Of a DNA stretch of 52,592 nt, positions 6,135 to 29,410 are shown in pieces. The position numbers and the translations under genes were made by a program. The number at the start of each line of letters is the position of its first letter. Position 1 is the stretch's first letter. The DNA is from Dietzia aurantiaca. Lineage in GTDB: Bacteria; Actinomycetota; Actinomycetes; Mycobacteriales; Mycobacteriaceae. Below the pieces are notes generated by a model. The model searched no databases. It had not been told where the DNA came from and saw only the letters and a list, made by a program, of their open reading frames with translations. The stretch is taken from NCBI RefSeq assembly GCF_021033825.1, contig NZ_JAIFXZ010000021.1:1-52592 (forward strand), in the 5' to 3' direction.

Positions 6135-6173
6135 TTGACGTGGCGCGGGTCGACTGTACGATTGTCGACAATC
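6135..6173 (+). promoter_or_regulatory. Amidase-gntR promoter with perfect 14-bp GntR-type operator
   Basis: GATTGTCGACAATC at 6160-6173 is a perfect palindrome of the kind bound by FadR-subfamily GntR proteins. A -35-like TTGACG (6135-6140) and -10-like TACGAT (6157-6162, 16-bp spacing) put the operator over the -10 and start site, consistent with repression. The downstream bases CCGAC are also conserved in the second copy at 28306. Confidence 0.75.
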
Positions 6174-6190
6174 CGACGAAAGGTGGCCTG

Positions 6191-7672
6191 ATGACCGCGT
6201 CTCTCACCGCACTGCAGCTCGCCGAGCGGTTCCGACGCGGCGAGCTGTCGCCCGTCGACGCGGCGCGTGACGCGCTGGCCGCGATCGAGCGGGTCGACGG
6301 CCGGCTGAACGCGATCTGCCACACCGGCCCCGAGGAGACGCTCCGGCAGGCACGGGCGGCCGAGCGGCGCTACCGCGACGGCGCGGCGATCGGCCCCATC
6401 GACGGCGTCCCCACCACCATCAAGGACATCTTCTACACCCGTGGAGTGCCGACGCTGCGCGGCTCCCACCTACTGGCCGACAAGCCCGGCGCGTACGACC
6501 CGGCCTCCTGGCCCGACGACGCCCCCGTCACCGCCGCGACCCACGAGGCCGGCTGCGTGGTGATCGGCAAGACCACCACGCCCGAGTTCGCGTGGAAGGG
6601 CGTCACCGACAACACCCTGACCGGCATCACCCGCAACCCCTACGACCCGGCGCTCACCCCGGGCGGCTCGAGCGGCGGCGCGTCGGCCGCGGTCGCCGCG
6701 GGGCTCGGGCAGCTCGCGCTCGGCACCGACGGCGGCGGATCGGTGCGGATCCCGGCCGCGTTCTGCGGCATCGTCGCCCTCAAGCCCACCTACGGCGTCA
6801 TCCCCATGTTCCCGTCGAGCCCGTTCGGCACGCTGGCCCACGCCGGGCCGATGACGCGCACCGTCGCGGACACTGCCGCGTTCATGGACGCGCTCCTGCG
6901 CCCCGATCCACGCGACTGGTCCGCGGTGCCCGCCCGAGCCACCACGCCCACCGCCGGTGGATACCTCGCCGCCGCCACCGACGGCGCCCGCGGCGACCGG
7001 TCGCTCGAGGGGCTGCGCGTCGCCTACAGTGCGACCCTGGGATTCGGGAGGAACGACGACGACGTCGAGCGTGAGGTCGCGCGGGCCGTGGGCGTGCTCG
7101 AGGCGCTCGGCGCGCGCGTCGACACGGTGGATCCCGAGATAACCGACCCCGTCGACGCGTTCCACGTCCTGTGGTTCGCCGGGCTCGAGGCGGTGCTCGC
7201 GCCCCACGGCCCGGGGGCGATCGAGCGAGTGGACCCGTCGATGCGGGAGGCGCTCGGCCGCTACCACGAGTTCTCGGCCGCCGACTACCTCGACGCGGTC
7301 GCGATCCGGATGGCGCTGGGCGCCCGGATGGCGGACTTCCACCAGAACTACGACCTACTGGTCACGCCCACCACGCCGATTCCCGCGTTCGCCGCGGGCT
7401 CGGACGTCCCGCCGGACTGGCACAGCCCCGACTGGACCTCGTGGACGCCCTACACGTACCCCTTCAACATGACCCAGCAGCCGGCGCTGTCCGTGCCGTG
7501 CGGGCTCACCGATTCCGGGCTGCCGGTCGGGGTGCAGCTGATCGGGGCCCGGTTCGAGGACCTGCTCGTGATCCGCGCCGGGGCGGCGCTCGAGGCCGCG
7601 CTCGGTCAGGTGGTCCCGGCACCGCCCGTCCACGCCGATGCGACGGCGCTACCGGGGAGCGCCACGGCATGA
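6191..7672 (+). CDS. Amidase-signature family amidohydrolase
   Basis: A 493-residue amidase-signature enzyme. The Ser-cisSer-Lys triad is visible: Lys78 in VPTTIKDIF, the cis-Ser in TPGGSSGGASAA (Ser161) and the nucleophile Ser184 in GTDGGGSVRIPA. The family hydrolyses carboxylic amides to acid plus amine or ammonia. The substrate cannot be read from sequence. The start ATG 6191 has AAAGG with 7-bp spacing; a longer upstream frame crosses the promoter. The stop overlaps the gntR start (ATGA), so the two are co-expressed. The neighbouring ectoine importer suggests an acylated amino acid or cyclic compatible-solute derivative as substrate, which is inference. GatA is unlikely because gatB/gatC partners are absent. 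Confidence 0.88.
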   Translation: MTASLTALQLAERFRRGELSPVDAARDALAAIERVDGRLNAICHTGPEETLRQARAAERRYRDGAAIGPIDGVPTTIKDIFYTRGVPTLRGSHLLADKPGAYDPASWPDDAPVTAATHEAGCVVIGKTTTPEFAWKGVTDNTLTGITRNPYDPALTPGGSSGGASAAVAAGLGQLALGTDGGGSVRIPAAFCGIVALKPTYGVIPMFPSSPFGTLAHAGPMTRTVADTAAFMDALLRPDPRDWSAVPARATTPTAGGYLAAATDGARGDRSLEGLRVAYSATLGFGRNDDDVEREVARAVGVLEALGARVDTVDPEITDPVDAFHVLWFAGLEAVLAPHGPGAIERVDPSMREALGRYHEFSAADYLDAVAIRMALGARMADFHQNYDLLVTPTTPIPAFAAGSDVPPDWHSPDWTSWTPYTYPFNMTQQPALSVPCGLTDSGLPVGVQLIGARFEDLLVIRAGAALEAALGQVVPAPPVHADATALPGSATA

Positions 7673-8352
7673 CCGAGCCGGATCATCTCGCCGGGCTCGA
7701 CCCGGTGGTGCAGGAGTCGACGCCCGCGATCATCGCGCGGGCCCTGCGCCGAGCGATCTCCGACGGCACCTTCGCCCCCGGTGACCAGCTGGGGGAGGCC
7801 GCGCTGGCGCGCACCCTCGGGGTGAGCCGGGGGCCGCTGCGGGAGGCGATGCAGCGGCTCACCCAGGAGGGGCTGCTGGTCTCACATCGCAACCGCGGGC
7901 TGTTCGTCGCCGAGCTCACCCCCGAGGCCGTGGCCGACATGTACCTGCTCCGCACGACCATCGAGACGGCAGCGCTTCAGCGGGTCCTCGAATCGGGGGC
8001 GGGTTCCCGGACCGCTGACGAGCTGGACTCCGCCGTGGACGCGATGGCGGCACTGGCGTCGGAGCCCCGCTCGGCCGCGATGGTGGCTGCCGATCTCGAC
8101 TTCCATCACGCGTTGGTCGAGGCGGCGCGCAGCCCGCGATTGTCCCGGGTCCACGAGACGGTGCTGGTGGAGACGAGCATGTGCCTGCACGCCATGAGCG
8201 CCACCTACTCGGACGCCGAGTCCCGGTTGTCGGAGCATCGCGCGATCGCGGACGCGGTCAGGGTTGGGGACGCCGCGCGTGCCACGTCGCTGCTGGTGGA
8301 GCACATGCAGGACGGGCTCGCCCGGGTCCGGGCGGCCGGTCCGGCGACCTGA
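7669..8352 (+). CDS. GntR-family transcriptional regulator, FadR/FCD subfamily
   Basis: A 227-residue protein. The N-terminal winged helix (about residues 14-75) has the motif GEAALARTLGVSRGPLREAMQRLTQEGLL. The C-terminal FCD domain carries the usual metal-binding residues: DLDFHHALVEAA, then LSEHRAIADAV and LLVEHMQDG. FCD domains sense small organic acids or amino acids. The gene overlaps the amidase stop and is translationally coupled to it. Its likely operator is the perfect palindrome in its own operon promoter, and an almost identical copy controls the aminotransferase operon at 28306. A strong hairpin overlaps its stop codon, which separates it from ehuB. Confidence 0.9.
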   Translation: MTEPDHLAGLDPVVQESTPAIIARALRRAISDGTFAPGDQLGEAALARTLGVSRGPLREAMQRLTQEGLLVSHRNRGLFVAELTPEAVADMYLLRTTIETAALQRVLESGAGSRTADELDSAVDAMAALASEPRSAAMVAADLDFHHALVEAARSPRLSRVHETVLVETSMCLHAMSATYSDAESRLSEHRAIADAVRVGDAARATSLLVEHMQDGLARVRAAGPAT

Positions 8353-8383
8353 CCCAGGCGAGCCGGCCGGGTCAGGTCGCCGG
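8341..8383 (+). terminator. Strong hairpin overlapping the gntR stop codon
   Basis: A perfect 15-bp stem pairs 8341-8355 (CCGGCGACCTGACCC) with 8369-8383 across a 13-nt loop. The left arm contains the gntR TGA at 8350-8352. There is no T-tract. It probably ends the amidase-gntR transcript. The next 193 bp up to ehuB should contain a separate promoter; I see only weak candidates there, such as a TTGTG/CACAA dyad at 8433-8450. Confidence 0.65.
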
Positions 8384-8576
8384 GTCAGCCGAAGGTCGGA
8401 GATGGTGAGGTTGAGGCGGTTGCGGATTGCGGTTGTGTCGGGAGCCACAAGTGACCCGTGATAAGTTCGGAAACAGCTAAGAGAGCATCGGGCGTGAGCC
8501 CACGTTCCGGTGAGACGTGAAGGTCGGACCGCGGGAGGGCCCGCGGTGCGATCGCGACCGGAAGGCTGGCAAGACA

Positions 8577-9470
8577 ATGGCACCCTCGGTGTTGAGAAAT
8601 CCCGCACGAACCCGTGCGATGGGCGCGATCGCCGCGACCGCGGCGGCCGTCATGGCGCTGTCCGGCTGCACCTCCACCTCGACGGATGAGGACGGCAGTC
8701 TCCTCGAGCAACTGCAGGACAAGGGCTCGGTGACGGTCGGCTTCGCCGGGGAGGCCCCGTACTCCTTCGAGGAGAACGGCGAGCTGACCGGTGCCACCGT
8801 GGCGCTGCACCGCGAGATCTTCGGCAACCTGGGGATCGACACCGTCGAGGGCCAGAACGCGGACTTCGGCGCCCTCATTCCCGGCCTGCAGGCCAACCGC
8901 TTCGACGTGGTGAGCGCGGGCATGTCGATCCTGCCCGAGCGCTGTGAGCAGGCCGCGTTCTCCGAGCCCGAGTTCAACTACACGACCGCGCTGATGGTGC
9001 CCGAGGGCAACCCGATGGGGCTGACGGACCTGCAGTCCGTGCTCGACAGCGGCGCTCGCCTGAGCACCATGACCGGCGCGATCGAGTCCGACTACGCCGC
9101 CCAGATGGGTATCGACAACACGCAGGTCGCCACCCCGCAGGACGGCATGGACGCCGTCACCTCCGGCCGCGCGGACGTGTTCGCGCTGACCGCCATCTCG
9201 CTGAACTGGATGGCCAACAACAACCCCGACGCCCCGGTCGAGGTGACCGAGTCGTTCGTCGCCGAGATCGACGGCGTGCCGCAGGTCGGCGCGGGTGGCA
9301 CGGTGTTCCGCACCGACGACCAGGAGCTGCTCGACGCGTACAACGAGGAGCTCGCCAAGATCACCTCGGACCCCGAGAAGTACCTGGAGATCGTGGGCGA
9401 GTACGGGTTCACGGCCGAGGAGCTCCCGGATCCGGAGCTGACGACCGCGGACCTCTGCGCAGGGGCGTGA
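8577..9470 (+). CDS. ehuB: Ectoine/hydroxyectoine-type ABC transporter substrate-binding lipoprotein (EhuB-like)
   Basis: A 297-residue family 3 solute-binding lipoprotein. The signal peptide ends in ALSGC (Cys31). Segments typical of EhuB are present: VTVGFAGEAPYSFEENGELT, FGALIPGLQANRFDVVSAGM, ILPERCEQAAFSEP and a C-terminal LTTADLCAGA. It would capture ectoine or hydroxyectoine for the following permeases. I chose ATG 8577 because GGAAGG lies 11 bp upstream and it gives a clean signal peptide; a longer GTG frame from 8517 adds only non-conserved residues. Assignment rests on remembered family sequence plus the B-C-D-A gene order, which is that of actinobacterial ehu operons. Another polar amino-acid binding specificity is possible. 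Confidence 0.8.
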   Translation: MAPSVLRNPARTRAMGAIAATAAAVMALSGCTSTSTDEDGSLLEQLQDKGSVTVGFAGEAPYSFEENGELTGATVALHREIFGNLGIDTVEGQNADFGALIPGLQANRFDVVSAGMSILPERCEQAAFSEPEFNYTTALMVPEGNPMGLTDLQSVLDSGARLSTMTGAIESDYAAQMGIDNTQVATPQDGMDAVTSGRADVFALTAISLNWMANNNPDAPVEVTESFVAEIDGVPQVGAGGTVFRTDDQELLDAYNEELAKITSDPEKYLEIVGEYGFTAEELPDPELTTADLCAGA

Positions 9471-9500
9471 TCCCGATTCCGAGAACCGAGGTGAGCGGCA

Positions 9501-10232
9501 GTGGACCGTAACCTCGACGCCTTCCTGGATTCCTGGCCCGGATTCCAGGAAGGCATTCTCATCACCATCTACCTGACCCTGGGTGGGGCGGCGCTGGCGT
9601 TCGTCATGGCGCTGGTGCTCGGCGTCGCCGCGGGGTCGCGACTCATCGTGCTGCGCGGGATCGCCCGCACGATCATTGAGTTCTTCCGCGGAACCTCCCT
9701 GCTCGTGCAGCTCTTCTGGCTGTTCTTCGTGTTGCCCCTGCTCGGGTACGAACTCGACCCGCTGTTCTGCGGGATCCTGGCACTGGGCCTGAACTACGGC
9801 GCGTATGCCGCCGAGGTCGTCCGCGGAGCGCTGGCGGCCGTGCCGGCCGCGCAGACCGAGGCCGCGATCGCGCTCAACCTCTCGACGTGGCAGCGGCTGT
9901 ACAAGGTGACGTTCCCGCAGGCCTGGGTGCAGATGATCCCGCCGCTGAACAACCTGCTGATCCAACTCCTCAAGGGCAGCGCGCTGGCCAGCTTCATCCT
10001 GCTGCACGACCTGACCTTCCAGATCGGTGAACTGCGCAAGACCACGGGCGACACCCTCTTCGCGTTCGGAATCGGCCTGATCCTGTACTTCGTGATCGCC
10101 TACGTACTGACTCTCTTCATGAACCTGCTCGAATTCCTCGCCAAGGCCCGTCTCGGGACCGGACCGACGCTGCGGGGGCTGCTGAGTCTGCGGCCCGAAC
10201 GCGTCGACGACGCGGTGGGGGTGGACCGATGA
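9501..10232 (+). CDS. ehuC: Ectoine/hydroxyectoine-type ABC permease EhuC-like
   Basis: A 243-residue polar-amino-acid-type inner-membrane permease with about five membrane spans. The hallmark segment IEFFRGTSLLVQLFWLFFVLPLLG matches EhuC proteins. The coupling (EAA) loop is AAQTEAAIALNLSTWQRLYK, followed by VTFPQAW. It starts with GTG 9501 after GAGGTGAGCGG, 30 bp behind ehuB. Its stop overlaps the ehuD start (ATGA), so the two permeases are made together as a heterodimer. Confidence 0.82.
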   Translation: MDRNLDAFLDSWPGFQEGILITIYLTLGGAALAFVMALVLGVAAGSRLIVLRGIARTIIEFFRGTSLLVQLFWLFFVLPLLGYELDPLFCGILALGLNYGAYAAEVVRGALAAVPAAQTEAAIALNLSTWQRLYKVTFPQAWVQMIPPLNNLLIQLLKGSALASFILLHDLTFQIGELRKTTGDTLFAFGIGLILYFVIAYVLTLFMNLLEFLAKARLGTGPTLRGLLSLRPERVDDAVGVDR

Positions 10233-10873
10233 GCGTGAACTGGAGTTGGGAACGCGCGGTCGAGAGCATCCCGTTCCTGCTGGAGGGCTTCAAGATCACC
10301 CTGCTGGCCACGGTGGCGGGTTTCGTCATCGCCGCGATCCTCGGCCTGGTGGTCGCGGTGCTACGGCGCTCCGGCCCGAAGGTCGTGACGGTGCCGCTGC
10401 GGATGGTCACCGAGTTCATCCGGCTGACGCCCCTGGTGGTGCAGCTGCTGTTCGCCTACTTCCTGCTGCCACAGTTCTCCGCGCTGCAGATCGGTATCAC
10501 CGTGCTCGGCATCCACTACGCCACCTACATGGCCGAGGTGTACCGGGCCGGCATCGACGCGGTGCCCCGCGGGCAGTGGGAGGCCGCGCGAGCGCTGTCG
10601 CTGCCCCCGGGACGGACCTGGCGCGCGGTGGTGCTGCCGCAGGCCATCCGGAACACCGTGCCCGCGCTCGGCAACTACGCGATCTCGCTGTTCAAGGACA
10701 CCCCGTTCCTCTTCGCGATCACCGTGGTCGAGATGGTCACGGCCGCGCAGCAGTACGGCGCCCGGAACTTCCAATACCTCGAGCCGATCACGATCGCCGG
10801 CGTGATCTTCCTGCTCGCGAGCTACCCGACGTCGATCCTGATCCGGAGACTGGAGAAGACCCTTGTCTACTGA
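10229..10873 (+). CDS. ehuD: Ectoine/hydroxyectoine-type ABC permease EhuD-like
   Basis: A 214-residue partner permease with about five membrane spans. The coupling loop reads IDAVPRGQWEAARALSLPPG, followed by AVVLPQAIRNTVPALGNY and LFKDTPFLFAITVVEM, all typical of HisM/GlnP-type subunits and close to EhuD. The ATGA overlap with ehuC and the 11-bp overlap with the ATPase gene show a single coupled operon. It forms half of the membrane channel. Specificity is set by the binding protein, so the ectoine assignment is inherited from ehuB. Confidence 0.82.
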   Translation: MSVNWSWERAVESIPFLLEGFKITLLATVAGFVIAAILGLVVAVLRRSGPKVVTVPLRMVTEFIRLTPLVVQLLFAYFLLPQFSALQIGITVLGIHYATYMAEVYRAGIDAVPRGQWEAARALSLPPGRTWRAVVLPQAIRNTVPALGNYAISLFKDTPFLFAITVVEMVTAAQQYGARNFQYLEPITIAGVIFLLASYPTSILIRRLEKTLVY

Positions 10874-11702
10874 CGGAAACCCCCCGACCGGACCCGCCCG
10901 GCCGGCGGACCCACCGGGGGCGGGCGATGACGGCTCGCACATGGTGGTGTTCGACAAGGTGCTCAAGCAGTTCGGCAGCAACGTCGTACTGGACCACCTG
11001 GACTTCACCGTGCGACGGGGCGAGCGTGTGGCCCTGATCGGCCCCAGCGGCTCGGGTAAGACCACCATCCTGCGTCTGCTCATGACGCTCGAGGAGGTCA
11101 ACGACGGCGTGATCTGGGTGGAGGGCCAGCCCCTGACCCACCAGCGCAAGGGCGACAAACTGGTCAAGGCGTCCCAGAAGCACCTCCGGCAGGTCCGGTC
11201 GAAGATCGGGATGGTGTTCCAGCAGTTCAACCTGTTCCCCAACATGACGGTGATGGAGAACATCACCGAGGCCCAGATCCATGTCCTTAATCGCTCCAAG
11301 GCCGAGGCCGTGGACCGGGCCCGCGAGCTCCTGGCCACGGTCGGGCTGTCGGACAAGGAGAACGCCCACCCCACCACGCTCTCGGGCGGTCAGCAGCAGC
11401 GGGTCGCGATCGCTCGCGCGCTGGCCATGGACCCGGACATCCTGCTGCTCGACGAGGTGACATCCGCCCTCGACCCCGAGCTCGTCGCCGACGTCCTCGG
11501 TGTGCTGAGGACGATCGCCGAGACCACTGACATCACCATGCTGCTGGTCACCCACGAGATGGGATTCGCCCGCGACGTGGCCGACCGGGTTCTCGTGTTC
11601 GACAAGGGCAAGATCGTCGAGGAGGGCACGCCCGAGGCAATCTTCACCAACCCGCAGAAAGAGCGGACGCGGACGTTCCTCAAGGCCGTCCTCGACCGCT
11701 GA
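10863..11702 (+). CDS. ehuA: Ectoine/hydroxyectoine-type ABC transporter ATPase EhuA-like
   Basis: A 279-residue polar amino acid ABC ATPase. Walker A is GPSGSGKT (60-67), the Q-loop is MVFQQFNLF, the signature is LSGGQQQR (173-180) and Walker B is ILLLDEVTSALDPE. The start is TTG 10863, inside the end of ehuD. The first about 26 residues are Pro/Gly/Asp-rich, and an alternative ATG at 10941 opens the conserved core. It energises the EhuBCD importer. The operon ends here, 9 bp from the stop of the convergent CoA-transferase gene, and no hairpin is obvious in that gap. Confidence 0.82.
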   Translation: MSTDGNPPTGPARPADPPGAGDDGSHMVVFDKVLKQFGSNVVLDHLDFTVRRGERVALIGPSGSGKTTILRLLMTLEEVNDGVIWVEGQPLTHQRKGDKLVKASQKHLRQVRSKIGMVFQQFNLFPNMTVMENITEAQIHVLNRSKAEAVDRARELLATVGLSDKENAHPTTLSGGQQQRVAIARALAMDPDILLLDEVTSALDPELVADVLGVLRTIAETTDITMLLVTHEMGFARDVADRVLVFDKGKIVEEGTPEAIFTNPQKERTRTFLKAVLDR

Positions 11703-11711
11703 CCGGGGGCG

Positions 11712-12908
11712 TCAGGCGGGCAGGACGCCGGCTGCCCGTAGTCCCTCTGCCTGCTCCTCGGTGATCCCGAGCTCGGAGAGCACCTCGGCGGTGTCCGCGC
11801 CGCGGTCGCGCGGGCCGAAGCGGACGGCGCCCGGGGTGTGCTCGAGCTTCACCGGGATGCCCACGCTGCGGTACCCGTCCCGCTCGACCACCATTTCGCG
11901 GTGGAGGACCTGGGGCAGCGACATCGCTTCCCCGACCGTGTTGACCGCCCCCGCCGGCACCCCGGCTGAGCGACACAGATCCGACAGCTCCGCGCGGCCC
12001 CACTCGCCGACGATCGCGCCGAGCGTCTCGCGCAGCTCCGCCGAATGGGCGAGCCGCTCGGCATTGGTGACGTAGCGCGGGTCCTCGGCGAGCTGGCCGA
12101 CGCCGAGCGCGGAGGTGAGAGACCGGAACTGCGAGTCGTTTCCCACGCCGATGAAGAACGGGCCGTCCGCGCACTGGAACGTCTCGTACGGGCAGATCGT
12201 CGGGTGTGCCACGCCGGTGCGCGGCGGGGTCTCGCCCGTGGCGAACCACTTGCCGGCGTGCGGGTGGAGAATCGATACGGCGTTGTCGAGCAGTGCGAGG
12301 TCGACCAACTGGCCCCGGCCGGTCGTCTCCCGGGCGTGCACGGCCATGAGGATCCCTGCCATCGCGTTGAGGCTGGTGATGATGTCGACCAGGGGGATGC
12401 CGACGCGCATCTCGGGACCGTCGGCCTCACCGTTGATGCTCATCAGGCCGGACAGTGCCTGGAGGACGGCATCGTATCCGGGCGCGCCGCCGAGCGGACC
12501 GTCGACGCCGTACCCGGTGATCCGGCAGTGGATGAGCCGCGGGAACTCCACGGCGAGCACCTCGTCGGATAGGCCCCATCGGTCGAGGGTGCCGGCCTTG
12601 AAGTTCTCGATCACCACGTCCGCCTCGGCCAGCAGTCGGCGAAGGAGGGCCTGCCCCTCGTCGGTGCGCAGGTCCACGCTGATGTTGCGCTTGTTGCGGT
12701 TGAGCCCGTCGAAATAGGCGCTGTGGCCCGGTTTGACGAACGGCGGGCCCCACCACCGGGTGTCGTCGCCGGCGGGAGGTTCGACTTTGATCACGTCCGC
12801 GCCGTGGTCGGCGAGCATCTGCCCGCAGAGCGGCCCGGCCAGGACGCGGGAGAGGTCGACGACCCGCAGGTCGGTGAGTGCGCCGGTGCGATCGGTGGTG
12901 TCGGTCAT
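11712..12908 (-). CDS. Family III CoA transferase (CaiB/BaiF type)
   Basis: A 398-residue family III acyl-CoA transferase. It opens with LRVVDLSRVLAGPLCGQMLADHGADVIKVEPP, followed by YFDGLNRNKRNISVDL and YDAVLQALSG. The catalytic Asp is expected in the segment GPEMRVGIPLVDIITSL. The family moves CoA from a donor thioester to a carboxylic acid. Here it probably activates the acid that the TRAP system imports, ahead of the two acyl-CoA dehydrogenases in the same operon. Its ATG overlaps the MFS stop. It is the last gene of the operon that starts at 16403. Confidence 0.88.
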   Translation of the reverse strand: MTDTTDRTGALTDLRVVDLSRVLAGPLCGQMLADHGADVIKVEPPAGDDTRWWGPPFVKPGHSAYFDGLNRNKRNISVDLRTDEGQALLRRLLAEADVVIENFKAGTLDRWGLSDEVLAVEFPRLIHCRITGYGVDGPLGGAPGYDAVLQALSGLMSINGEADGPEMRVGIPLVDIITSLNAMAGILMAVHARETTGRGQLVDLALLDNAVSILHPHAGKWFATGETPPRTGVAHPTICPYETFQCADGPFFIGVGNDSQFRSLTSALGVGQLAEDPRYVTNAERLAHSAELRETLGAIVGEWGRAELSDLCRSAGVPAGAVNTVGEAMSLPQVLHREMVVERDGYRSVGIPVKLEHTPGAVRFGPRDRGADTAEVLSELGITEEQAEGLRAAGVLPA

Positions 12909-14158
12909 CTGTCACTCCTGGTGTTCGGTGTGGTCTGGTCGCGGGGGTCGGGCGCGTGGCGGGTCGGCAGGGCGCCGACGCTGCCGAGCTCGTCGAAGGG
13001 ATGCCGGCGGAGCGAGACGCTCGTGGTGGCCGCCGAGGCGGCGGTGAGCGCGCCGGAGAGGAGGAAGACGCTGCCCGGGCCGGCGATCCCGGCGATCGCG
13101 CCGGCGCCGAGGGGGACGAGGACCTGGGCGGCCCGGTTGCCGGTCAGTCGCAGCGACAGCGCTGCGGCGCGCTCCCCGGGCGGCGCGGCCGCGGTCACCC
13201 AGTTCATGGTCACGGGCTGGTTCATGCCCCAGAAAAACCCGATCACGGCGAGGCAGGCGAACATCGTCGCGGCGCCGCCGGCGAGGCCGAGTACGACCAC
13301 CGCCGGGGTGGTCACGACGGGGGAGGCGATGAGGATCGCGCGCTGGGACCACCGCCGCAGCGCCCACGGTGTGGCCGCGCGGGAGATCATGGAGAACACC
13401 GAGCGCGTCGCGACGAGCAGGGTCACCACGAGCGGTGTCAGCCCCACGGACTCGCCCAGCACGGGCATATACGCGGTGATGAGGTCGAAGCCCGTCACCA
13501 CGATGAGCGCGGCGAAGATCGACGGCGGCATGCCCTTCCGGCGCAGGAGCGCGGTCATCGACTCCGCACGGGGCTGACCCGCGCTTCGCGCGGGGGGCGT
13601 CGACCGGGGCAGGGCGAGCGCGAACGGCAGCGAGATGACGATCGCCGTCGCCATCACCCACAGCGCCGGGCCGGTGTCCACGTGCTCACCGGCGCGTCCG
13701 GCCTGGAGCAGGACGCCCATGACCGGCGTGCCCACCGCCTGGCCGACCGAGACGGCGAGCGTGAACATCGCGAAGCCGTTCACGTGCCGGTCGCGGGTGG
13801 TGAGTTCCATGACGAATCCCTGGGCGGCGATGAGCGTCATGACCTGACCCAGGCCGACCATCGCGTTGGCGGCGGCCAGGACGGGGATGGAGGGCGCCAC
13901 CGCGGTCAGGGCGACCGCTGACGCGGACACCGCGGTACCGACGGCGAGGACGCCCCAGCTGCCGCGCCGGTCGACGAGCCGCCCGAACTGCAGGGCGACG
14001 AGCATCGGCAGCGCCGCGAACGTGGCGGCGACCAGCCCCACCTGGGCGGCGTCGCCGCCGAGCGCGAGTACCCGGTACGAGACCGCCACCCGCACGGCGT
14101 CGTACGCGCCGTTGACCAGCACGACGGCGACGAACAGTCGGGCGAGCGGAGCGGTCAC
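12905..14158 (-). CDS. Major facilitator superfamily transporter
   Basis: A 417-residue polytopic membrane protein with about 12 hydrophobic segments and the MFS loop motif as GRLVDRRGSWGVLAVG (after helix 2). I chose GTG 14156-14158, 8 bp downstream of the acyl-CoA dehydrogenase stop, because a longer frame reads antisense into that gene. The N-terminus is then MTAPLARLFVAVVLVNGAYD. The substrate is unknown. Lying between the dehydrogenases and the CoA transferase, it may export or import an intermediate of that pathway. The stop overlaps the CoA-transferase start. Confidence 0.8.
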   Translation of the reverse strand: MTAPLARLFVAVVLVNGAYDAVRVAVSYRVLALGGDAAQVGLVAATFAALPMLVALQFGRLVDRRGSWGVLAVGTAVSASAVALTAVAPSIPVLAAANAMVGLGQVMTLIAAQGFVMELTTRDRHVNGFAMFTLAVSVGQAVGTPVMGVLLQAGRAGEHVDTGPALWVMATAIVISLPFALALPRSTPPARSAGQPRAESMTALLRRKGMPPSIFAALIVVTGFDLITAYMPVLGESVGLTPLVVTLLVATRSVFSMISRAATPWALRRWSQRAILIASPVVTTPAVVVLGLAGGAATMFACLAVIGFFWGMNQPVTMNWVTAAAPPGERAAALSLRLTGNRAAQVLVPLGAGAIAGIAGPGSVFLLSGALTAASAATTSVSLRRHPFDELGSVGALPTRHAPDPRDQTTPNTRSDR

Positions 14159-14166
14159 GGATCGGC

Positions 14167-16403: not shown

Positions 16404-16440
16404 CGGTTCTCCTGCTGGTGAGGGCTGTCGGGCCGCGTGA

Positions 16441-16476
16441 TGTCACTATGACACCGTTCGGCTATTTACGCAATAG
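16441..16476. promoter_or_regulatory. Two dyads between the acyl-CoA dehydrogenase operon and iclR
   Basis: The 129-bp divergent region holds TGTCA-cta-TGACA (16441-16453, perfect) and CTATT-tacgc-AATAG (16462-16476, perfect arms). Either could bind the adjacent IclR-type regulator, which commonly controls a divergent catabolic operon. Which dyad is the operator cannot be decided from sequence alone. Confidence 0.5.
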
Positions 16477-16532
16477 AGCAACGGGTTACGGATTTAAGTA
16501 AGTATGGGCTGCGGCTTGGTAGGCTCGTGCTC

Positions 16533-17285: not shown

Positions 17286-17295
17286 CCGCGCCCGG

Positions 17296-18111: not shown

Positions 18112-18178
18112 CGTCATTCCTTTGCGGGGAGGGTTGGAGTGGGTGTCGGAGTGGGTCGGTCGGTTGGGTCGGCTCAGG

Positions 18179-19462: not shown

Positions 19463-19463
19463 G

Positions 19464-20096: not shown

Positions 20097-21211
20097 GATC
20101 GCTCGCTTCCGTGCTCGGACTCCGCACGGGCGAGTGCGGCGGTGAAGTCGTCGAGGACCCGGCGGGCGGGCAGACCGATGCTCTCCAGGTCCTCGACCCA
20201 GGACTCCCGGACGGGCGCGGCCAGCGCCTCCCAGTGGGGGCGCTCGGCGTCCGTGACCTCGATCATCTGTACTCCCGCGTCGCGCATTGCCTGCTTCGAC
20301 TCGTCCATCGACCGGTTGATCTCGCGGCACACGGAGTCCTGTGCGACCTCGGACGCCTCGGCGAGGACGGCCTGCTGCTCCGGGGTCATCTCGTTCCAGA
20401 CCGTGTCGGAGACGGAGTAGGTGACCGTGAACGAGCCGAGGTTGGCACCGTCGGTGGAGTACTGGATGACCTCCTCAAGGCTGTACGGCGTGATGCTCAG
20501 GGGGCTCGCGAGGGTGCCTTCGACGGTGCCGCGGGAGATCGCCTCGTACATGTCACCCAGCGGCATAGAGACGCCGGCCGCGCCGGCTGCGTCCACCACG
20601 CGGTCGGCCGCGCCTCCGGTCGACCGCATGATCTTGCCGTGGAGAGCCTCGACGGAGTCGACGGGGAACGCGCCCGACATGGCTTCGTAGCCGGGGATAT
20701 AGGCGACCCAGAGCGGGTGCACGTCCTGCGGCGCGAGCTCGGTCTCGAACAGCGTGGTCCCCGGCTGCATGATCTCGAGCATCGCGTCACCGCCGACGCA
20801 CGAGTCCTGGGTGAAGCCGGGAAGGTCTCCCACGTTCGCCAGGGGGAGTTGCGTTCCCACGTACGCGGGGGAGACGGCTGCGATCTGGGCGATCCCGGTG
20901 CGCAGCACGGCGGGCATGTCCCGCTGCTTTCCGAGCTGGCCGGAGTCGAAGTACACGATCTCCATCCCGGCGGACGGCGCCGTGTCCCGGAGGATCTCCA
21001 TGAAGTCGGTCGTGCCGCTGCGCCCGATGGGGTGGGTGGCGGCGAAACTGTCCGCGACCCTGATCTCCAGAGGCTCGGACGGGGTGTCGGGCTCGCCGGA
21101 ACATGCCGTCGCGGCGATCGCCACGGATAGGCCGGCCGCGACCGTCGACGCCGCGCGACGGGCTGTGGTCCGCCGGGCTGTACCGCGGATCGGACGAGGG
21201 GGGCGTCTCAT
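20093..21211 (-). CDS. dctP: TRAP transporter solute-binding lipoprotein (DctP type)
   Basis: A 372-residue periplasmic-type receptor. The signal peptide ends in the lipobox AATAC (Cys37), so the protein is lipid-anchored. Family features include LEIRVADSFAATHPIGRSG, YFDSGQLGKQRDMP and LHGKIMRSTGGAADRVVDAAG, the last containing the Arg that usually binds the ligand carboxylate. ATG 21211 has AAGG about 6 bp upstream. It leads the operon dctP-dctQ-dctM-hydratase. The ligand is unknown, and the protein is about 40 residues longer than typical DctP proteins. Confidence 0.88.
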   Translation of the reverse strand: MRRPPRPIRGTARRTTARRAASTVAAGLSVAIAATACSGEPDTPSEPLEIRVADSFAATHPIGRSGTTDFMEILRDTAPSAGMEIVYFDSGQLGKQRDMPAVLRTGIAQIAAVSPAYVGTQLPLANVGDLPGFTQDSCVGGDAMLEIMQPGTTLFETELAPQDVHPLWVAYIPGYEAMSGAFPVDSVEALHGKIMRSTGGAADRVVDAAGAAGVSMPLGDMYEAISRGTVEGTLASPLSITPYSLEEVIQYSTDGANLGSFTVTYSVSDTVWNEMTPEQQAVLAEASEVAQDSVCREINRSMDESKQAMRDAGVQMIEVTDAERPHWEALAAPVRESWVEDLESIGLPARRVLDDFTAALARAESEHGSERS

Positions 21212-21235
21212 GAGAATCCTTAACTAGGGAACTCA

Positions 21236-22481: not shown

Positions 22482-22497
22482 CCCCGTCGGCGGCGCG

Positions 22498-23961
22498 TCA
22501 GCGCACCGGGATCGCGACGAGCTTGGTCTCGAGAAACTCCTCGATCCCGGTCCTCCCGCCCTCGCGGCCCAGCCCCGACTGCTTGATGCCGCCGAACGGC
22601 GCCGCCGGGTTGGAGACCACGCCGACGTTGACGCCGACCATTCCCGCCTGCAGCCGCTCGGACATCGTCATCGCGCGGTCGAGGTTCTCGGTCATGACGA
22701 ACGAGACCAGGCCGAACTCGGTGTCGTTGGCCAGCTCCACGGCCTCGTCGTCGGTGTCGAAGGGGATCAGCGCGGCGACGGGTCCGAAGATCTCGGTCGA
22801 CATCAGTTCGGCCTCGGGCGAGACCCCGGTGAGCACGGTGGGCGGGTAGAAGAACCCCGGCCCGTCTCCGCGACTGCCGCCGGTCAGGACCTCGGCGCCC
22901 CGCGAGACGGCGTCGTCGACCAGCCCCTCGACCTTGGCGACGGCCTTCTCCTCGACCAGCGGGCCCACGTCCACGCCGTCCTGGACACCGTTGCCGACGG
23001 TGAGCGCGCCCATCTTCTCGGTGAGGCGCCTCCCGAACTCGTCGATCACCGAGCGGTGCACGAGGATCCGGTTGGCGGACGTGCACGCCTCACCCATGTT
23101 GCGCATCTTGGCGGCCATGGCGGCGTCGACCGCGGTGTCCATGTCCGCGTCCTCGCACACGACGAACGGTGCGTTCCCGCCCAGTTCCATGGACGTGCGC
23201 AGCACCCCGCGTGCGCACTGCTCGAGCAGCGTCCTGCCGACGGGGGTGGAGCCGGTGAACGACAGTTTGCGGGCGATCCCGGAGTCGATCCACGGCTCCA
23301 CCACGCTGCCGGCCGAGGTCGTGCACACGACGTTGAGAACGCCGTCGGGCAGCCCGGCCTCCCGCAGCAGATCGACCACGTACAGCGAGGTCAGTGGTGT
23401 GAGGTTGGCGGGCTTGAACACCATGGTGCAGCCGGCGGCGATCGCCGGCCCGATCTTGCGGGTGGCCATGGCCAGCGGGAAGTTCCACGGGGTGATGAGG
23501 ATGCACGGCCCCACGGGCTCGGAGGTGACCATCAGCCGGGTGTTGCCGTCGGGGGAGCGGCGGGCGTCGCCGGAGATACGGCAGGCCTCCTCGGAGAACC
23601 AGCGGAAGAACTCGGCGCCGTAGGTCACCTCGCCGCGCGCCTCGGCCAGCGGTTTGCCCATCTCGGTGGTCATGATCAGCGCGAGCTCGTCGGCGTTCTC
23701 GAGGAGTAGTTCGTAGGCGCGCCGGAGGATCTCGGCCCTCTCCCGCGCGGGCACGGCCGCCCAGCTCGCCTGGGTGCGGCCGGCGGCCTGGATCGCCGCG
23801 GCGGCATCGTCGGCACCGCCGTCGGCGATCGTCGCCACGGATTCGCCGGTGGCCGGGTTGTGCACCTCGAACGTGGCGCCGGTGGCGGCGTCGCGCCACT
23901 GGCCGTCCACGTGGATGCCGGTGCCGAGGGTGGCGATGAGGTCGGCGACGGAGCGGGTCAT
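22498..23961 (-). CDS. gabD: NAD(P)-dependent aldehyde dehydrogenase, succinate-semialdehyde dehydrogenase-like
   Basis: A 487-residue aldehyde dehydrogenase. It shows ITPWNFPLAMATRKIGPAIA (cofactor-binding region), FTGSTPVGRTLL, the general base Glu in MELGGNAPF, the catalytic Cys in NMGEACTSANR and EIFGPVAALIPF. The NMGEACTSANR form is common in actinobacterial succinate-semialdehyde dehydrogenases. AGGAGG lies 6 bp before ATG 23961, which overlaps the stop of the FAD/FeS enzyme gene. It is the third gene of the aminotransferase operon and would oxidise the semialdehyde made by the aminotransferase: succinate semialdehyde if the amine is GABA, or aspartate semialdehyde if it is 2,4-diaminobutyrate from ectoine. 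Confidence 0.85.
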   Translation of the reverse strand: MTRSVADLIATLGTGIHVDGQWRDAATGATFEVHNPATGESVATIADGGADDAAAAIQAAGRTQASWAAVPARERAEILRRAYELLLENADELALIMTTEMGKPLAEARGEVTYGAEFFRWFSEEACRISGDARRSPDGNTRLMVTSEPVGPCILITPWNFPLAMATRKIGPAIAAGCTMVFKPANLTPLTSLYVVDLLREAGLPDGVLNVVCTTSAGSVVEPWIDSGIARKLSFTGSTPVGRTLLEQCARGVLRTSMELGGNAPFVVCEDADMDTAVDAAMAAKMRNMGEACTSANRILVHRSVIDEFGRRLTEKMGALTVGNGVQDGVDVGPLVEEKAVAKVEGLVDDAVSRGAEVLTGGSRGDGPGFFYPPTVLTGVSPEAELMSTEIFGPVAALIPFDTDDEAVELANDTEFGLVSFVMTENLDRAMTMSERLQAGMVGVNVGVVSNPAAPFGGIKQSGLGREGGRTGIEEFLETKLVAIPVR

Positions 23962-26900
23962 GGCTGCCTCCTGGGGGTCGGGTCGGTCGGGTCGGGGTCG
24001 AGGAGTTCGAACAGGTGACGGCCGGTCCGGCGGCCGACGCGCGGGTCGCGCGCCGCGAGGTGGGCTACCTGGGTGGCGCACGAGAACCCGTCGGCCAGGA
24101 CGGGGGCCTCGGGGTCGGCACGAAGGGCGGGGGCCAGGGCCTGCTGCGCCACCGCGTCGGCGACGGCCTCGTGCCCGGCGGTGAACCCGAAGTCCCCGGC
24201 GAGGCCGCAGCAGCCGGTGGCCTCGCGGACCGAGCCCACGCCGAGGGCGGTGAGGGTGGCGCGCTGGACCCGGTTGCCGAAGGTGGCGTACTCGTGGCAG
24301 TGGGTCTGGACCGTGACGCGGTCGGGCGGGGCACCGCCGGGCCAGGCGGGGGCGCGGCCGGAGGCGGCCAGCACGCCCAGGTACTCGGCGGCGGAGCGCA
24401 CGCGCGCGGCCACGCGGCGGGCGAGCTCGGCGTCAGAGGTCTCCGCGAGGAGGCGGGGGAGATCGCCGCGCAGGGCGGCGGCGCAGGAGGGTTCGACGAC
24501 GAGGACGGGGACCTCCTCCCCGTCCGGGCCGCGGATCCCGTCGAGGTGCCGCGCGGTGTCGCTCAGGGTGCGGCGGGCGGCGTCCAGCCGTCCGGTGGTG
24601 ATGTGGGTCAGCCCGCAGCAGTGGCCGGAGCTGCACGCGACGGACGTGTGCGAGCTGCCGAGGACGCGGGCGGCCGCGCCGGCGACCGCGGGGCGCAGTC
24701 CCCGGGTGAAGGAGTCGAGGAAGAGCACCACCTCGGCCGAGGTGCGCGTGGCCGGGGCAGAGGCCGACGTGGGGGCCAGCGTGGGGGCCCCGCGCTTGAC
24801 TGCCCAGACGCTGTCGGGGGCCCGGGCCAGTTCGGTGCGCAGTTCGGCGGCGGAGGTGAAGCGGGGCAGCTCGCGGTCGGCGGCGACCCCGCCAACCCGG
24901 GCGGCGGCCCGCCCGAGCCGCGTGGACATGACGGCGTTGAGCGGCCCGGCGATCCGGCCGGTCGCGCGCAGCCACACCGGCAGCAGACCGAGGGAGTAGT
25001 GCACCCGGGGTCGGGGTCGCCCCCGGTAGCGGCGGTGCAGGGCCTCGGACTTGAAGGCGGCCATGTCCACACCGGTGGGGCAGTCCGACGAGCACGCTTT
25101 GCAGGCCAGGCACAACTCGAGTGATTCCTCGACCGCCGGGTCGTCGACGGGCAGGGTGCCGCGCACGACCTCCTGCAGGACGCGGGCGCGGCCCCGGGTG
25201 GAGTCCTTCTCGTCGCCGGTGGCGCGGAACGACGGGCACATCACGCCGCCGGTGGAGGTGCGGCAGCGGCCCACCCCGATGCAGGCCTGGACCGGGTGGG
25301 CGCCCCCTGCGGAGGTGAGCAGGCCCAGGTCGCGCGGGTGGCGCCGGTCGGGGATGCCGTCCAGGGCCAGATCGGCATCCAGTGGTCGGGTGGCGGTGAG
25401 TCCGCCCGGAGCGAGCAGTCCCGCGGGGTCCCAGAGGCGCGCGAAGCGGTCGAACGCGCCGAGCATCTCGGGCGAGTACATGACCGGCAGCAGTTCGGAG
25501 CGGGCCCGGCCGTCGCCGTGCTCCCCGGACAGCGAGCCGCCGTGGCGCACGGCGAGGTGGGCGGCGTCGGTGCAGAAGGCGCGGAAGACGGCCCGTCCGG
25601 CGTCGCTCCGGAGGTCGAAGGTGATGCGGATGTGCATGCAGCCGGCGCCGAAGTGTCCGTACATCACACCGGTGAGTCCGTGCTGGTCCAGCAGCTCGCG
25701 GAACTCGGCGAGGTAGTCGGCCAGGCGCTCGGGCGGGACGGCCGAGTCCTCCCAGCCGGGCCACGACTCGATGGTCCGGCCGGTCGCCGGGTCGGTGAGC
25801 CGCGAGCTGAGCCCGGCGCCGTCCTCGCGGACCCGCCACAGGTCGGCGCGGGCCACGGGGTCGGTCACGACGAGCGCTTGCATGGCGTGGCCGGTCCGGA
25901 CGAGTTGGTCGGCCAACCCCGCCATCCGGGCCTCGAGCCCGCTGTCGGTGGCGGCGTCGGGGGTGGCGGCCTCGTCGTCGTCCAACTCGATGAACAGCCA
26001 CGCGCGTCCGTCGGGGAGTTCGGCGACGGAGTCCGCGCCGCGCCGGGAGCGCATAGTCGCGACGATCACCTCGTCCACGCCCTCTACGGCTGTAGGACGG
26101 TGCGGCAGGATGGCCGGCACGTCGCGTGCGGCGTCCACGACGTCGGCGTATCCCACCACGAGCAGGCCGGTACGGGCGGCGCGCGGCACGATCCGCATCC
26201 GTGTGGCGGTGACGATCGCGCACGTGCCCTCGGACCCCACGAGCGACCGGGCCACGTCGAAGCCCTCCTCGGGCAGGAGGTGCCGCAGGTGATAGCCCGA
26301 CACCTGGCGGGGGATCCGGCCGAGCTCAGTGCGGATGGCGGCGAGGTGCTCGGCGGCCAGGTCCCGGAGTCCGGTGGTGAGGTGCTCTGCGCGCGCGGTG
26401 GCGGCGGCCTCGCGCGGGTCGGTGGCCTCGATGCCGTGGCGGGTGGCGGTCAGGCGGAGTCCGTCGGCGGTGACCAGGCGCAGCGCCTCCACGTGGTCGG
26501 CGGTCCGGCCGTGGCGCACCGAGTGGTTGCCGCACGCGTCGTTGCCGATCGCCCCGCCCAGGCACGCCCGCGACTGGCTGGACGGGTCGGGGGCGAAGGT
26601 CAGGCGGCTGTCGGTGGCGGCGTGGACGGCGGCGCGCAGGTCGGTCAGGACGGCGCCGGCCTCGGCGCTGACCACCCCGGCGGCCTCGTCCACCGCGAGT
26701 ACGCGGTTCATATGCCGCGACAGGTCCAGCACGAGGCCGCTGCCGATCGCGTTGCCGGCCATCGACGTGCCGCCGCCCCGAGCGGTGGCCGGCACGCCGA
26801 GCCGGTGGCATGCCGCCAGTGCCGTGGCCACCTCGTCCTCAGTTCGGGGGAACACCACGGCCGCCGGGACGACCCGGTAGTTGGAGGCGTCGTAGGAGTA

Positions 26901-26996
26901 TTCGGCGATGCGGCGGGGATCGGACTCGGGCGACAGGCCGGCGGCGGTGAGCGCCTCGATCAGCGCGTCGCTGCGGGCCCCCACCGTCGCGGTCAC
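23958..26996 (-). CDS. FAD- and [4Fe-4S]-containing D-2-hydroxyacid dehydrogenase (YdiJ/D-2-hydroxyglutarate dehydrogenase-like)
   Basis: A 1012-residue three-part enzyme close to E. coli YdiJ in length and layout. The N-terminal FAD-binding-4 domain shows ATARGGGTSMAGNAIGSGLV. The FAD-oxidase C domain contains YGHFGAGCMHIRI and GGSLSGEHGDGRAR. The ferredoxin-like region carries the cysteines of CIGVGRCRTSTGGVMCPSF and CLACKACSSDCPTGVD. Two CCG cysteine-rich motifs follow: SGHCCGL and then HCHEYATFG...CCGLAG. YdiJ-type enzymes oxidise D-2-hydroxyglutarate to 2-oxoglutarate and pass electrons to the respiratory chain. I chose GTG 26996, whose GTGA overlaps the aminotransferase stop; the frame runs further upstream only as shadow. 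Other 2- or 4-hydroxyacids are possible substrates. Confidence 0.82.
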   Translation of the reverse strand: MTATVGARSDALIEALTAAGLSPESDPRRIAEYSYDASNYRVVPAAVVFPRTEDEVATALAACHRLGVPATARGGGTSMAGNAIGSGLVLDLSRHMNRVLAVDEAAGVVSAEAGAVLTDLRAAVHAATDSRLTFAPDPSSQSRACLGGAIGNDACGNHSVRHGRTADHVEALRLVTADGLRLTATRHGIEATDPREAAATARAEHLTTGLRDLAAEHLAAIRTELGRIPRQVSGYHLRHLLPEEGFDVARSLVGSEGTCAIVTATRMRIVPRAARTGLLVVGYADVVDAARDVPAILPHRPTAVEGVDEVIVATMRSRRGADSVAELPDGRAWLFIELDDDEAATPDAATDSGLEARMAGLADQLVRTGHAMQALVVTDPVARADLWRVREDGAGLSSRLTDPATGRTIESWPGWEDSAVPPERLADYLAEFRELLDQHGLTGVMYGHFGAGCMHIRITFDLRSDAGRAVFRAFCTDAAHLAVRHGGSLSGEHGDGRARSELLPVMYSPEMLGAFDRFARLWDPAGLLAPGGLTATRPLDADLALDGIPDRRHPRDLGLLTSAGGAHPVQACIGVGRCRTSTGGVMCPSFRATGDEKDSTRGRARVLQEVVRGTLPVDDPAVEESLELCLACKACSSDCPTGVDMAAFKSEALHRRYRGRPRPRVHYSLGLLPVWLRATGRIAGPLNAVMSTRLGRAAARVGGVAADRELPRFTSAAELRTELARAPDSVWAVKRGAPTLAPTSASAPATRTSAEVVLFLDSFTRGLRPAVAGAAARVLGSSHTSVACSSGHCCGLTHITTGRLDAARRTLSDTARHLDGIRGPDGEEVPVLVVEPSCAAALRGDLPRLLAETSDAELARRVAARVRSAAEYLGVLAASGRAPAWPGGAPPDRVTVQTHCHEYATFGNRVQRATLTALGVGSVREATGCCGLAGDFGFTAGHEAVADAVAQQALAPALRADPEAPVLADGFSCATQVAHLAARDPRVGRRTGRHLFELLDPDPTDPTPRRQP

Positions 26997-28279
26997 GACC
27001 GGCCCACGACCCGGTGGACGGCGCGGGTCAGGCGCTCGACGCCCGTGTCGACCTCGTCGGCGGTCACGACCAGGGCCGGGATGACGCGCACGATCGAGCC
27101 GGTCGGGCCGCAGGTCAGGGTGAGCAGGTCCTCGTCGATGCACGCCTGCTGCACGGCGCCGGCCAGACGGGCGCCCTCGAGCGCGCCGGGGTTGCCGGCG
27201 GGCGCGGCCGCGTCACCGAACTCGACGGCCAGCATGAGCCCGGTACCGCGGATGTCGCAGATCTCGCCCACGTCGCCGAGGCTACGCCTAAGCCCGTCGA
27301 GAAGTTGCGTTCCGCGCTCGGCCGCATTGGCCACCAGTCCCTCGCGATCGATGACGTCCAGCGTCGCGACGGCAGCCGCGGCCGCGACCGCGTTGCCGCC
27401 GTAGGTGCCGCCCTGTGACCCGGGCCAGGCCCTGGCCATGAGCTCCTCCGGCGCGGCGATCGCCGAGATGGGAAAGCCCGAGGCGATGCCCTTGGCGGTG
27501 ATGAGGACGTCCGGCACGAGTCCCTCGGTGTGCTGGTGGCCCCAGAACCGACCCGTGCGGCCGACGCCGGCCTGCACCTCGTCGAGCACGAGCAGCGCGC
27601 CGTGCGCCGTGGCGCGCTCGCGCAGCCCCTGCAGGTAGCGCTGCGGGACGGCCATGTAGCCGCCGTCGCCGAGTACCGGCTCGATCACGATCCCCGCCAG
27701 CTCACGCGGGTCGATGCGGGTGGCGAGCAGGAAGTCGAACTCGGCCAGTGCGTAGTCCACGGCCTCATCGGTGGTCATCCCCAGGCGCAGCGCGTCGGGG
27801 TAGGGGGTCTGCGCCACGCCGGCCATGAGGGGGCCGAACCCGGCGGAGAACTTGGTGCCGGCGGTGGTCAGGCTCGCGGCGGCGACGGTGCGCCCGTGAA
27901 AGCCGCGCTGCACGGTGACGATGTACTGCCGACCGGTGGCCATGCGCGCCAGGCGCACCGCGGCCTCGACCGCCTCCGAGCCGGAGTTGGCGTAGAACAC
28001 CGAGTCGATACCCGCCGGCAGGTGCTCACCCAGCTTTTCGGTGAGCTCGAGAAGCGGCTGGTGCATGACGGTCGTGTACTGCGCGTGGATGATCTTCGCG
28101 CACTGCGCCTGCGCGGCCGCCACCACATCGGGGTGGCAGTGGCCGGTCGAGGTCACGCCGATGCCGGTCGTGAAGTCGAGGTAGTCGCGGCCGTCGGTGC
28201 CGTGGATCCACGAGCCCAGGGCGTGGTCCACCACGACGGGCGTGGCCTGCTTGAGGACGGGGGACAGGTGCGCGGTCAT
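26993..28279 (-). CDS. gabT: Class III (omega-amino acid/GABA-type) PLP aminotransferase
   Basis: A 428-residue fold-type I aminotransferase. It shows GIGVTSTGHCHPDVVAAAQ, VFYANSGSEAVEAAVRLAR, FHGRTVAAASLT, LLVLDEVQAGVGRTGRFWG (the PLP-contacting Asp) and the lysine site ITAKGIASGFPISA. GABA, acetylornithine and 2,4-diaminobutyrate aminotransferases all share these. It probably transfers an omega-amino group to 2-oxoglutarate. It is first in an operon with the FAD/FeS and aldehyde dehydrogenases, all joined by 4-bp overlaps. No ribosome binding site precedes ATG 28279; promoter geometry predicts a leaderless transcript. A GntR operator covers the -35 region. Confidence 0.87.
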   Translation of the reverse strand: MTAHLSPVLKQATPVVVDHALGSWIHGTDGRDYLDFTTGIGVTSTGHCHPDVVAAAQAQCAKIIHAQYTTVMHQPLLELTEKLGEHLPAGIDSVFYANSGSEAVEAAVRLARMATGRQYIVTVQRGFHGRTVAAASLTTAGTKFSAGFGPLMAGVAQTPYPDALRLGMTTDEAVDYALAEFDFLLATRIDPRELAGIVIEPVLGDGGYMAVPQRYLQGLRERATAHGALLVLDEVQAGVGRTGRFWGHQHTEGLVPDVLITAKGIASGFPISAIAAPEELMARAWPGSQGGTYGGNAVAAAAAVATLDVIDREGLVANAAERGTQLLDGLRRSLGDVGEICDIRGTGLMLAVEFGDAAAPAGNPGALEGARLAGAVQQACIDEDLLTLTCGPTGSIVRVIPALVVTADEVDTGVERLTRAVHRVVGRS

Positions 28280-28285
28280 GCGGTC

Positions 28286-28319
28286 AGTGTGTGACCGGCC
28301 GGGGCGATTGTCAACAATC
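28286..28319 (-). promoter_or_regulatory. Aminotransferase operon promoter with second GntR operator
   Basis: GATTGTCAACAATC at 28306-28319 is a near-perfect copy of the amidase-promoter palindrome (one base differs, and CCGAC follows in both). On the minus strand a consensus -35 TTGACA (28309-28314) lies inside it. A -10-like CACACT (28286-28291) follows at 17 bp, ending 6 bp before the gabT ATG. Binding would cover the -35 box and repress. The same site lies 37 bp upstream of the divergent hydroxyacid dehydrogenase. Confidence 0.75.
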
Positions 28320-29360: not shown

Positions 29361-29410
29361 CGGGCCCATAGGCGCGTGAACCATCCGTGCCCCCGACCGA
29401 GAGGAGAACA

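Follow-up and report, generated by a model that had tools for sequence, protein, structure and literature searches.

The subject of this report is a pair of nearly identical palindromes in front of two operons of Dietzia aurantiaca, which lie in a stretch of 52,592 nucleotides (contig NZ_JAIFXZ010000021.1), hereafter called the window. On the plus strand, a gene for an amidase-signature family protein (6191..7672; Pfam PF01425 and NCBIfam NF004815 above cut-off) is followed by the gene for an FCD-type GntR regulator (7669..8352), the start of which overlaps the amidase stop codon (an ATGA overlap). Operator 1 (6160..6173, no strand assigned), GATTGTCGACAATC, is a perfect palindrome, and 17 bases separate its end from the amidase start codon. 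On the minus strand lie the genes for a class III aminotransferase, here called gabT (26996..28279; PF00202, no NCBIfam equivalog cut-off reached), a fused FAD/FeS dehydrogenase resembling YdiJ and GlcD-GlcF (23958..26999; 416.2 bits to the YdiJ model, below its cut-off of 1350), and an aldehyde dehydrogenase of the succinate-semialdehyde type (22498..23961; PF00171, with 573.6 bits to TIGR01780, below its cut-off of 646.35). Operator 2 (28306..28319, no strand assigned), GATTGTCAACAATC, lies between gabT, whose start codon is 26 bases away, and a divergent D-2-hydroxyacid dehydrogenase gene at a distance of 36 bases (28356..29327, plus strand; PF02826 and PF00389 above cut-off). Since operator 2 lies within this 76-bp divergent intergenic region, it faces the D-2-hydroxyacid dehydrogenase gene too. 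The initial annotation described the gabT side of this site correctly but overlooked the divergent gene.

Both palindromes are where the initial annotation had placed them. Its count of 18 identical bases out of 19 is right for positions 6159-6177 against 28305-28323 (a C, the 14-mer, and CGAC, with one difference), while its wording that both sites continue with CCGAC is not, since the palindrome itself ends with the first of these Cs. In the 3.77-Mb Dietzia assembly, 6160 and 28306 are the sole places where GATTGTCRACAATC is found with zero or one mismatch, and the rest of the places listed all have two mismatches. Allowing up to two mismatches yields 16 rows on the forward and 20 on the reverse strand (a palindromic motif is counted on both strands), as compared with 2 and 2 for the reversed-letter pattern. 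In a zero-order estimate, a genome is expected to have about 0.004 exact copies. Many unrelated genome hits, which according to the initial annotation would speak against a shared operator, were not found in this genome, which has only the two sites with zero or one mismatch.

Overlap of the operators with promoters

The predicted amidase-gntR promoter (6135..6162, plus strand; TTGACG-16-TACGAT) runs into operator 1, which covers the last three bases of the -10 element. In the predicted gabT promoter (28286..28314, minus strand; TTGACA-17-CACACT), the -35 element (28309-28314) is inside operator 2. These two overlaps, with the -10 element at site 1 and with a consensus TTGACA at site 2, had been pointed out before, and it was found that they hold and recur across the genus. 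At site 1, all 16 Dietzia sites and two Gordonia loci have a TTGACN-16-TA[CG]GAT promoter that extends into the operator; in one Dietzia genome (G012), the leader is far longer and the overlap is nonetheless kept. At site 2, the operator includes TTGACA, and CA[CG]ACT comes 17 or 18 bases later, in all 17 Dietzia sites. The gabT start codon is 6 bases past the -10 element in the window and 6 or 7 bases past it in the Dietzia sequences displayed, and the gabT transcript is probably leaderless. The constant overlap of promoter and operator points to repression and is therefore read here as a repressor that would block the polymerase.

The conservation value of 1.00 for the operator columns of the Dietzia site alignment is partly due to construction, because the sequences were chosen by motif. 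The fair counts are the gene-anchored ones; just two entries (G007/L052 and G019/L055) were fetched by motif alone. Anchored on the genes, ATTGTCGACAAT is upstream of the amidase gene in all 16 Dietzia genomes whose amidase start could be read, and ATTGTNNACAAT is upstream of gabT in 18 of 20.

Co-occurrence of the regulator and the palindrome

Do the GntR protein and the palindrome occur together in other genomes? The exact 14-mer is present in 38 of 101 genomes, including the own genome, and the reversed pattern in one. Within Dietzia (23 genomes), the GntR protein was found in 20 and the exact 14-mer in 20, and two genomes (G021 and G022) have neither. The 78 genomes outside the genus were searched for GntR at 1e-30 with the window's own protein as query (38 genomes) or at 1e-40 with an alignment (the other 40, and G036 again). 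All 17 of those with a GntR hold the exact 14-mer, as does 1 of the 61 without (G090). The Fisher p value of about 3e-16 for this association is a guide figure, given the relatedness of the genomes and the differing thresholds. In 13 of the 18 motif-positive genomes outside the genus, the places of the exact motif were viewed, and a module gene was in view in 11. Among the other five, going by coordinates, motif and GntR gene are no more than about 2 kb apart in G068, G085, and G094 and 7.7 kb apart in G063, and G090 has no GntR.

Named loci were also fetched by GntR similarity alone, and the best 80 of at least 582 confirmed ones were analysed. They include five Dietzia genomes already examined, and Williamsia muralis is present twice; the genera represented include Dietzia, Gordonia, Williamsia, Arthrobacter, Kocuria, Mycobacterium, Nocardia, Amycolatopsis, and Actinomadura. 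There are 164 copies of ATTGTNNACAAT in 77 of these 80 loci. Its half-site ranks first of all 1,024, and the 19 other permutations of this half-site give at most one match. The three loci without ATTGTNNACAAT are L098, whose contig begins inside gntR, L132, and L165; one-off variants are present in L165. As many as 148 of the 164 sites are near a predicted gene start, and 16 were left unassigned with a rough gene finder. Counted by gene start, where one site may count for two genes, the sites belong to genes for GntR or EutA-like proteins (63), hydroxyacid dehydrogenase (56), gabT (35), aldehyde dehydrogenase (25), DUF3830 (17), amidase (11), EutD-like proteins (11), EhuB (6), MFS transporters (4), FAD/FeS dehydrogenase (4), and others (11). 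Further genes thus stand behind the operator in other genera. A check for module genes found none in three loci (L103, L121, and L132).

The lineage of G021 and G022, which are near-identical at the locus and were counted as one event, has kept a part of the system. Neither genome has a match to GntR or to the amidase, and gabT is kept at 89% identity. In G021, the aldehyde dehydrogenase, FAD/FeS dehydrogenase, and gabT genes are at the expected place (89, 81, and 89% identity), and the amidase, gntR, transporter, and hydroxyacid dehydrogenase genes are not at this place. The gabT operator of both genomes has 4 of 14 bases changed relative to the sister genomes, but GATCGTC in the far flank and the -10 element CACACT are retained.

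The module and its layout

The core module is made up of the amidase, the class III aminotransferase, the succinate-semialdehyde-type aldehyde dehydrogenase, the FAD/FeS dehydrogenase, and the D-2-hydroxyacid dehydrogenase. The initial annotation had linked two distant operons 22 kb apart. The link stands, but the distance is a local accident: from site 1 to the gabT promoter it is 8.1-12.3 kb in 11 of 12 loci of the same genus and 19.3 kb in the twelfth (G010). In other genera, the enzymes can form a compact cluster, such as motif-gabT-gntR-hydroxyacid dehydrogenase-amidase in L088. By this comparison of gene orders, the two operons are one module that is split in Dietzia.

The extra length in the window is largely a block at 11.7-21.2 kb. 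This block (11712-21211) holds genes for a CoA-transferase, an MFS transporter, two acyl-CoA dehydrogenase-like proteins, an IclR regulator, an enoyl-CoA hydratase, and a TRAP transporter; G010 has some of it at the corresponding position, and in G004 much of it is on the other side of the amidase gene. Beside the cluster, at 2435-5209, are genes for a metal ABC transporter (a ZnuA-type binding protein, an ATPase, and an ABC-3 permease), which hold their position in many Dietzia loci, including that of the gntR-less G021.

The GntR protein and the proposed mechanism

The GntR protein (227 amino acids) has an N-terminal winged helix (PF00392, 65.8 bits; cut-off 27) and a C-terminal FCD domain (PF07729, 73.6 bits; cut-off 24.3). 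The domains found are limited to GntR/helix-turn-helix and FCD, and there is no aminotransferase-like sensor domain. With a winged helix, an FCD domain, and a palindromic operator of the TKGT/ACMA type, the protein shows the features of the FadR/FCD subfamily. Residues D142, H146, H190, and H212 of the FCD domain are invariant or nearly so, and residues such as these bind metal in FCD proteins. The recognition helix (SRGPLREA) is also conserved. The initial annotation proposed the FCD-type GntR at 7669 as the binder, and the GntR-palindrome co-occurrence, the 77 of 80 best-matching loci, the promoter geometry, and the operator decay in the gntR-less lineage all argue for this.

It is thus very likely, as the best explanation of the whole, that the palindromes are the operators of this GntR protein (7669..8352) and that it represses one catabolic module. 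A GntR dimer on operator 1 would cover the -10 element and the start region of the amidase-gntR promoter, most likely resulting in negative autoregulation. A dimer on operator 2 would cover the -35 element of the gabT-FAD/FeS-aldehyde dehydrogenase promoter, and its occupancy would adjoin the promoter of the divergent hydroxyacid dehydrogenase gene and perhaps of ectD, described below. Bound GntR would block RNA polymerase, and the inducer that makes it leave the operators would be a metabolite of the pathway, probably a carboxylate that binds in the FCD pocket. The module under this control may carry out amide hydrolysis, transamination, aldehyde oxidation, and 2-hydroxyacid redox reactions.

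Several observations weigh against this explanation. The loss in G021 and G022 is one event, and the -35 element has decayed along with the operator, because the two overlap. Another Dietzia genome (G006) has the GntR without the motif; this assembly is 64% complete, with gntR at a contig end. Conversely, G020 (87% complete, with the amidase gene at a contig end) has the motif and no GntR match, and outside the genus G090 has the motif without a GntR. The exact motif is not beside the module in G036 and G091, and the GntR matches of G091 are near the 1e-40 threshold. G091 also has a one-base operator variant (L090:18186) between a gabT homologue and a divergent aldehyde dehydrogenase homologue, the open reading frame of which is apparently in pieces.

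Might another regulator, either another FCD-type GntR or a member of another family, bind the palindromes, while the adjacent GntR acts elsewhere? The own genome encodes four further FCD proteins, and PrpR of Pseudomonas aeruginosa is reported with the same 12-base core (PMC9765439); the motif is therefore not private to one regulator. On the other hand, GntR and the motif co-occur across genera, and the recognition-helix stretch differs in three of the four other FCD proteins (GRSTVREA, SRVPVRDA, and SVTPVREA), the three compared, by which the other FCD regulators were rejected as the binder. I regard this alternative as unlikely. It is also unlikely that GntR binds both sites and yet acts as an activator. 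A separate TTGACA of the same promoter lies just downstream of the site-2 operator in G012 and Gordonia hydrophobica, which puts the operator in a position open to an activator. Against activation, operator 1 lies over the end of the -10 element in all 16 Dietzia sites and both Gordonia loci, whatever the leader length, and operator 2 holds the -35 element in every one of the 17 Dietzia sites. Finally, the palindromes might be a chance match. Loose matches do arise by chance, since the window has 10 rows at three mismatches and shuffled sequences have a mean of 3.06. A chance origin of the two sites themselves is practically ruled out by the own-genome scan with its zero-order estimate, the conservation and distribution across genomes, the half-site ranking, and the co-occurrence with GntR. 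Computation establishes the operators, their overlap with promoters, the co-occurrence of GntR and motif, and the conserved module; binding, repression, the inducer, and the substrate are inferred.

Possible link to ectoine

What might the substrate of the module be? The genes for an ectoine/hydroxyectoine ABC transporter, ehuBCDA, are next to gntR (8577..11702, plus strand). EhuB, EhuC, EhuD, and EhuA all pass their NCBIfam equivalog cut-offs, indicating that the importer is present with the cluster. An ectoine hydroxylase (ectD) homologue (29387..30274, plus strand; TIGR02408, 338.3 bits) is directly downstream of the D-2-hydroxyacid dehydrogenase gene on the same strand, and it is possibly a member of the regulon. 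It is the sole ectoine hydroxylase match in the own genome. Two ectoine synthase homologues are encoded away from ectD, on contigs C3 and C23. The salt-stress compound ectoine, 5-hydroxyectoine, or a close relative appears likelier as the substrate than any other single candidate, at about an even chance.

The probability that the regulon is real and the substrate is not ectoine-like is a little short of one half. The Ehu and EctD genes would then be accidental neighbours, and the substrate might for example be pantothenate, an omega-amino acid such as gamma-aminobutyrate (GABA), or some other amide. Pantothenate breakdown was considered from general knowledge, and no literature was found that ties pantothenate to this cluster. 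In favour of a non-ectoine substrate, the aminotransferase and the aldehyde dehydrogenase look GABA-type, and no EutD over the cut-off was found in the own genome (best score 58.6 bits, as compared with 613). A relative's M24 protein (L115) also remains below that cut-off, at 416.4 bits to the EutD model. More generally, the EutA-like and EutD-like genes of relatives stand behind operators and score below the family cut-offs. The search for EutA-like PF17645 gave no match in the own genome and none in the control genomes either, and is not evidence of absence. DUF3830 was not found in the own genome, while two control genomes matched. The Dietzia EctD is barely over its cut-off (336.5). Against these points, all six non-Dietzia loci with ehuB have the operator in front of it (three of these EhuB proteins were scored, all above cut-off), and ectD follows gntR in two Rhodococcus loci, with scores well above the cut-off.

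The transporter of Dietzia itself weighs against an ectoine regulon. No operator-like site with up to three mismatches was found before ehuB in the window (8340-8620). At the same stringency, five of eight other Dietzia loci have none before ehuB, and the remaining three have one three-mismatch string inside or near ehuB. An operator before ehuB was rejected for these Dietzia loci, and co-regulation of ehuBCDA with the module is not supported there. In addition, a strong hairpin (8338..8386, plus strand) lies between gntR and ehuB, at the gntR stop codon. It is GC-rich and terminator-like without a T run, and the folding energy of 8325-8400 is about -56 kcal/mol. The Rfam scan of the window gave nothing at the gathering score. 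The idea that gntR and ehuB are separated by a known RNA element was rejected, as the sub-threshold Rfam matches at 8300-8700 were mostly microRNA models on the GC-rich hairpin and were judged to be chance.

Two versions of EhuBCDA exist in Dietzia. Compared with the window, the proteins of L073, L075, L076, L082, and L083 are either 81-90% or about 30-57% identical, and the genes sit after gntR or before the amidase gene, as if the transporter had been swapped. DUF3830 proteins (e.g., L146:8957-9457; function unknown) are encoded in 36 of the best 80 GntR loci, often behind an operator. One member of this family has a solved structure (3kop), and no mention of DUF3830 was found in the literature searched. 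Class I aminotransferase-like proteins (e.g., L116:11900-13180) are encoded in 22 of the 80 loci; they resemble the sensor part of MocR regulators, and only 47 residues precede that part.

Relation to known systems

PrpR (PA0797) of P. aeruginosa is an FCD-type GntR repressor of the methylcitrate operon (PMC9765439). PrpR resembles the Dietzia regulator in being an autoregulated FCD-type repressor with the predicted operator ATTGTCGACAAT, which matches the core of site 1 exactly, and a gel shift was reported for its own upstream region. It differs in that it controls propionate/methylcitrate genes; none of the methylcitrate-cycle genes is among the Pfam-annotated genes at and between the two Dietzia sites (annotated up to 31.5 kb). 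FadR-subfamily regulons of the RegPrecise type have palindromes with TKGT/ACMA boxes and a GT-AC spacing of 2 or 3 nucleotides (PMC4494728). The Dietzia system is like them in box consensus and spacing, in carboxylate-related catabolic regulons, and in single-site divergons. The present regulon was not seen in the passages covered, and the word "amidase" is absent from the main text (the supplementary lists were outside the scope). The operator core shared with PrpR and the fit to the FadR-subfamily consensus indicate that the kind of system is known. In the table of predicted Mycobacterium smegmatis GntR operators as displayed (PMC2018728), no match to the Dietzia palindrome was found.

EnuR/EutR, the MocR-type ectoine repressor, is likewise a GntR-superfamily repressor of an import-plus-catabolism cluster. 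Such clusters may include ehuABCD together with genes for a class III aminotransferase and a succinate-semialdehyde dehydrogenase-like enzyme (PMC8739950, PMC5924519, PMC5320631). The EnuR sensor is aminotransferase-like, in contrast to the FCD domain of the Dietzia regulator, and the operators differ; moreover, the Dietzia set has no EutD over the cut-off. A 2018 review described EnuR regulation and held ectoine consumers to be restricted to Proteobacteria (PMC5924519). Putative Gram-positive ectoine clusters have since been described from Actinomycetota and Bacillota, with EutD-like proteins, aminotransferase, aldehyde dehydrogenase, amidohydrolase, and EhuABCD or MFS transporters, and that 2026 paper calls them provisional (PMC13188858). 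They have the same gene types as the module genes of the Dietzia relatives. They differ in having been found through EutD, and in the accessible text PucR is named for Bacillota and no FCD-type GntR or operator was seen. No description of the present regulon was recognised in the literature searched, with supplementary files and most subscription journals outside the scope.

It is tentatively proposed, as a possibility I consider clearly less probable than not, that Actinobacteria control ectoine/5-hydroxyectoine uptake and breakdown with an FCD-type GntR repressor, whose sensor domain is unrelated to that of the proteobacterial EnuR. Dietzia would do so without an EutD hydrolase, via ectoine hydroxylation, the amidase, and 2-hydroxyacid dehydrogenases. 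The predicted regulator-operator pair is directly testable and belongs to a catabolic module of many actinobacterial genera for which no assigned substrate was found. If the link to ectoine is true, a regulator and its operator would become known for the use of ectoine by Gram-positive bacteria.

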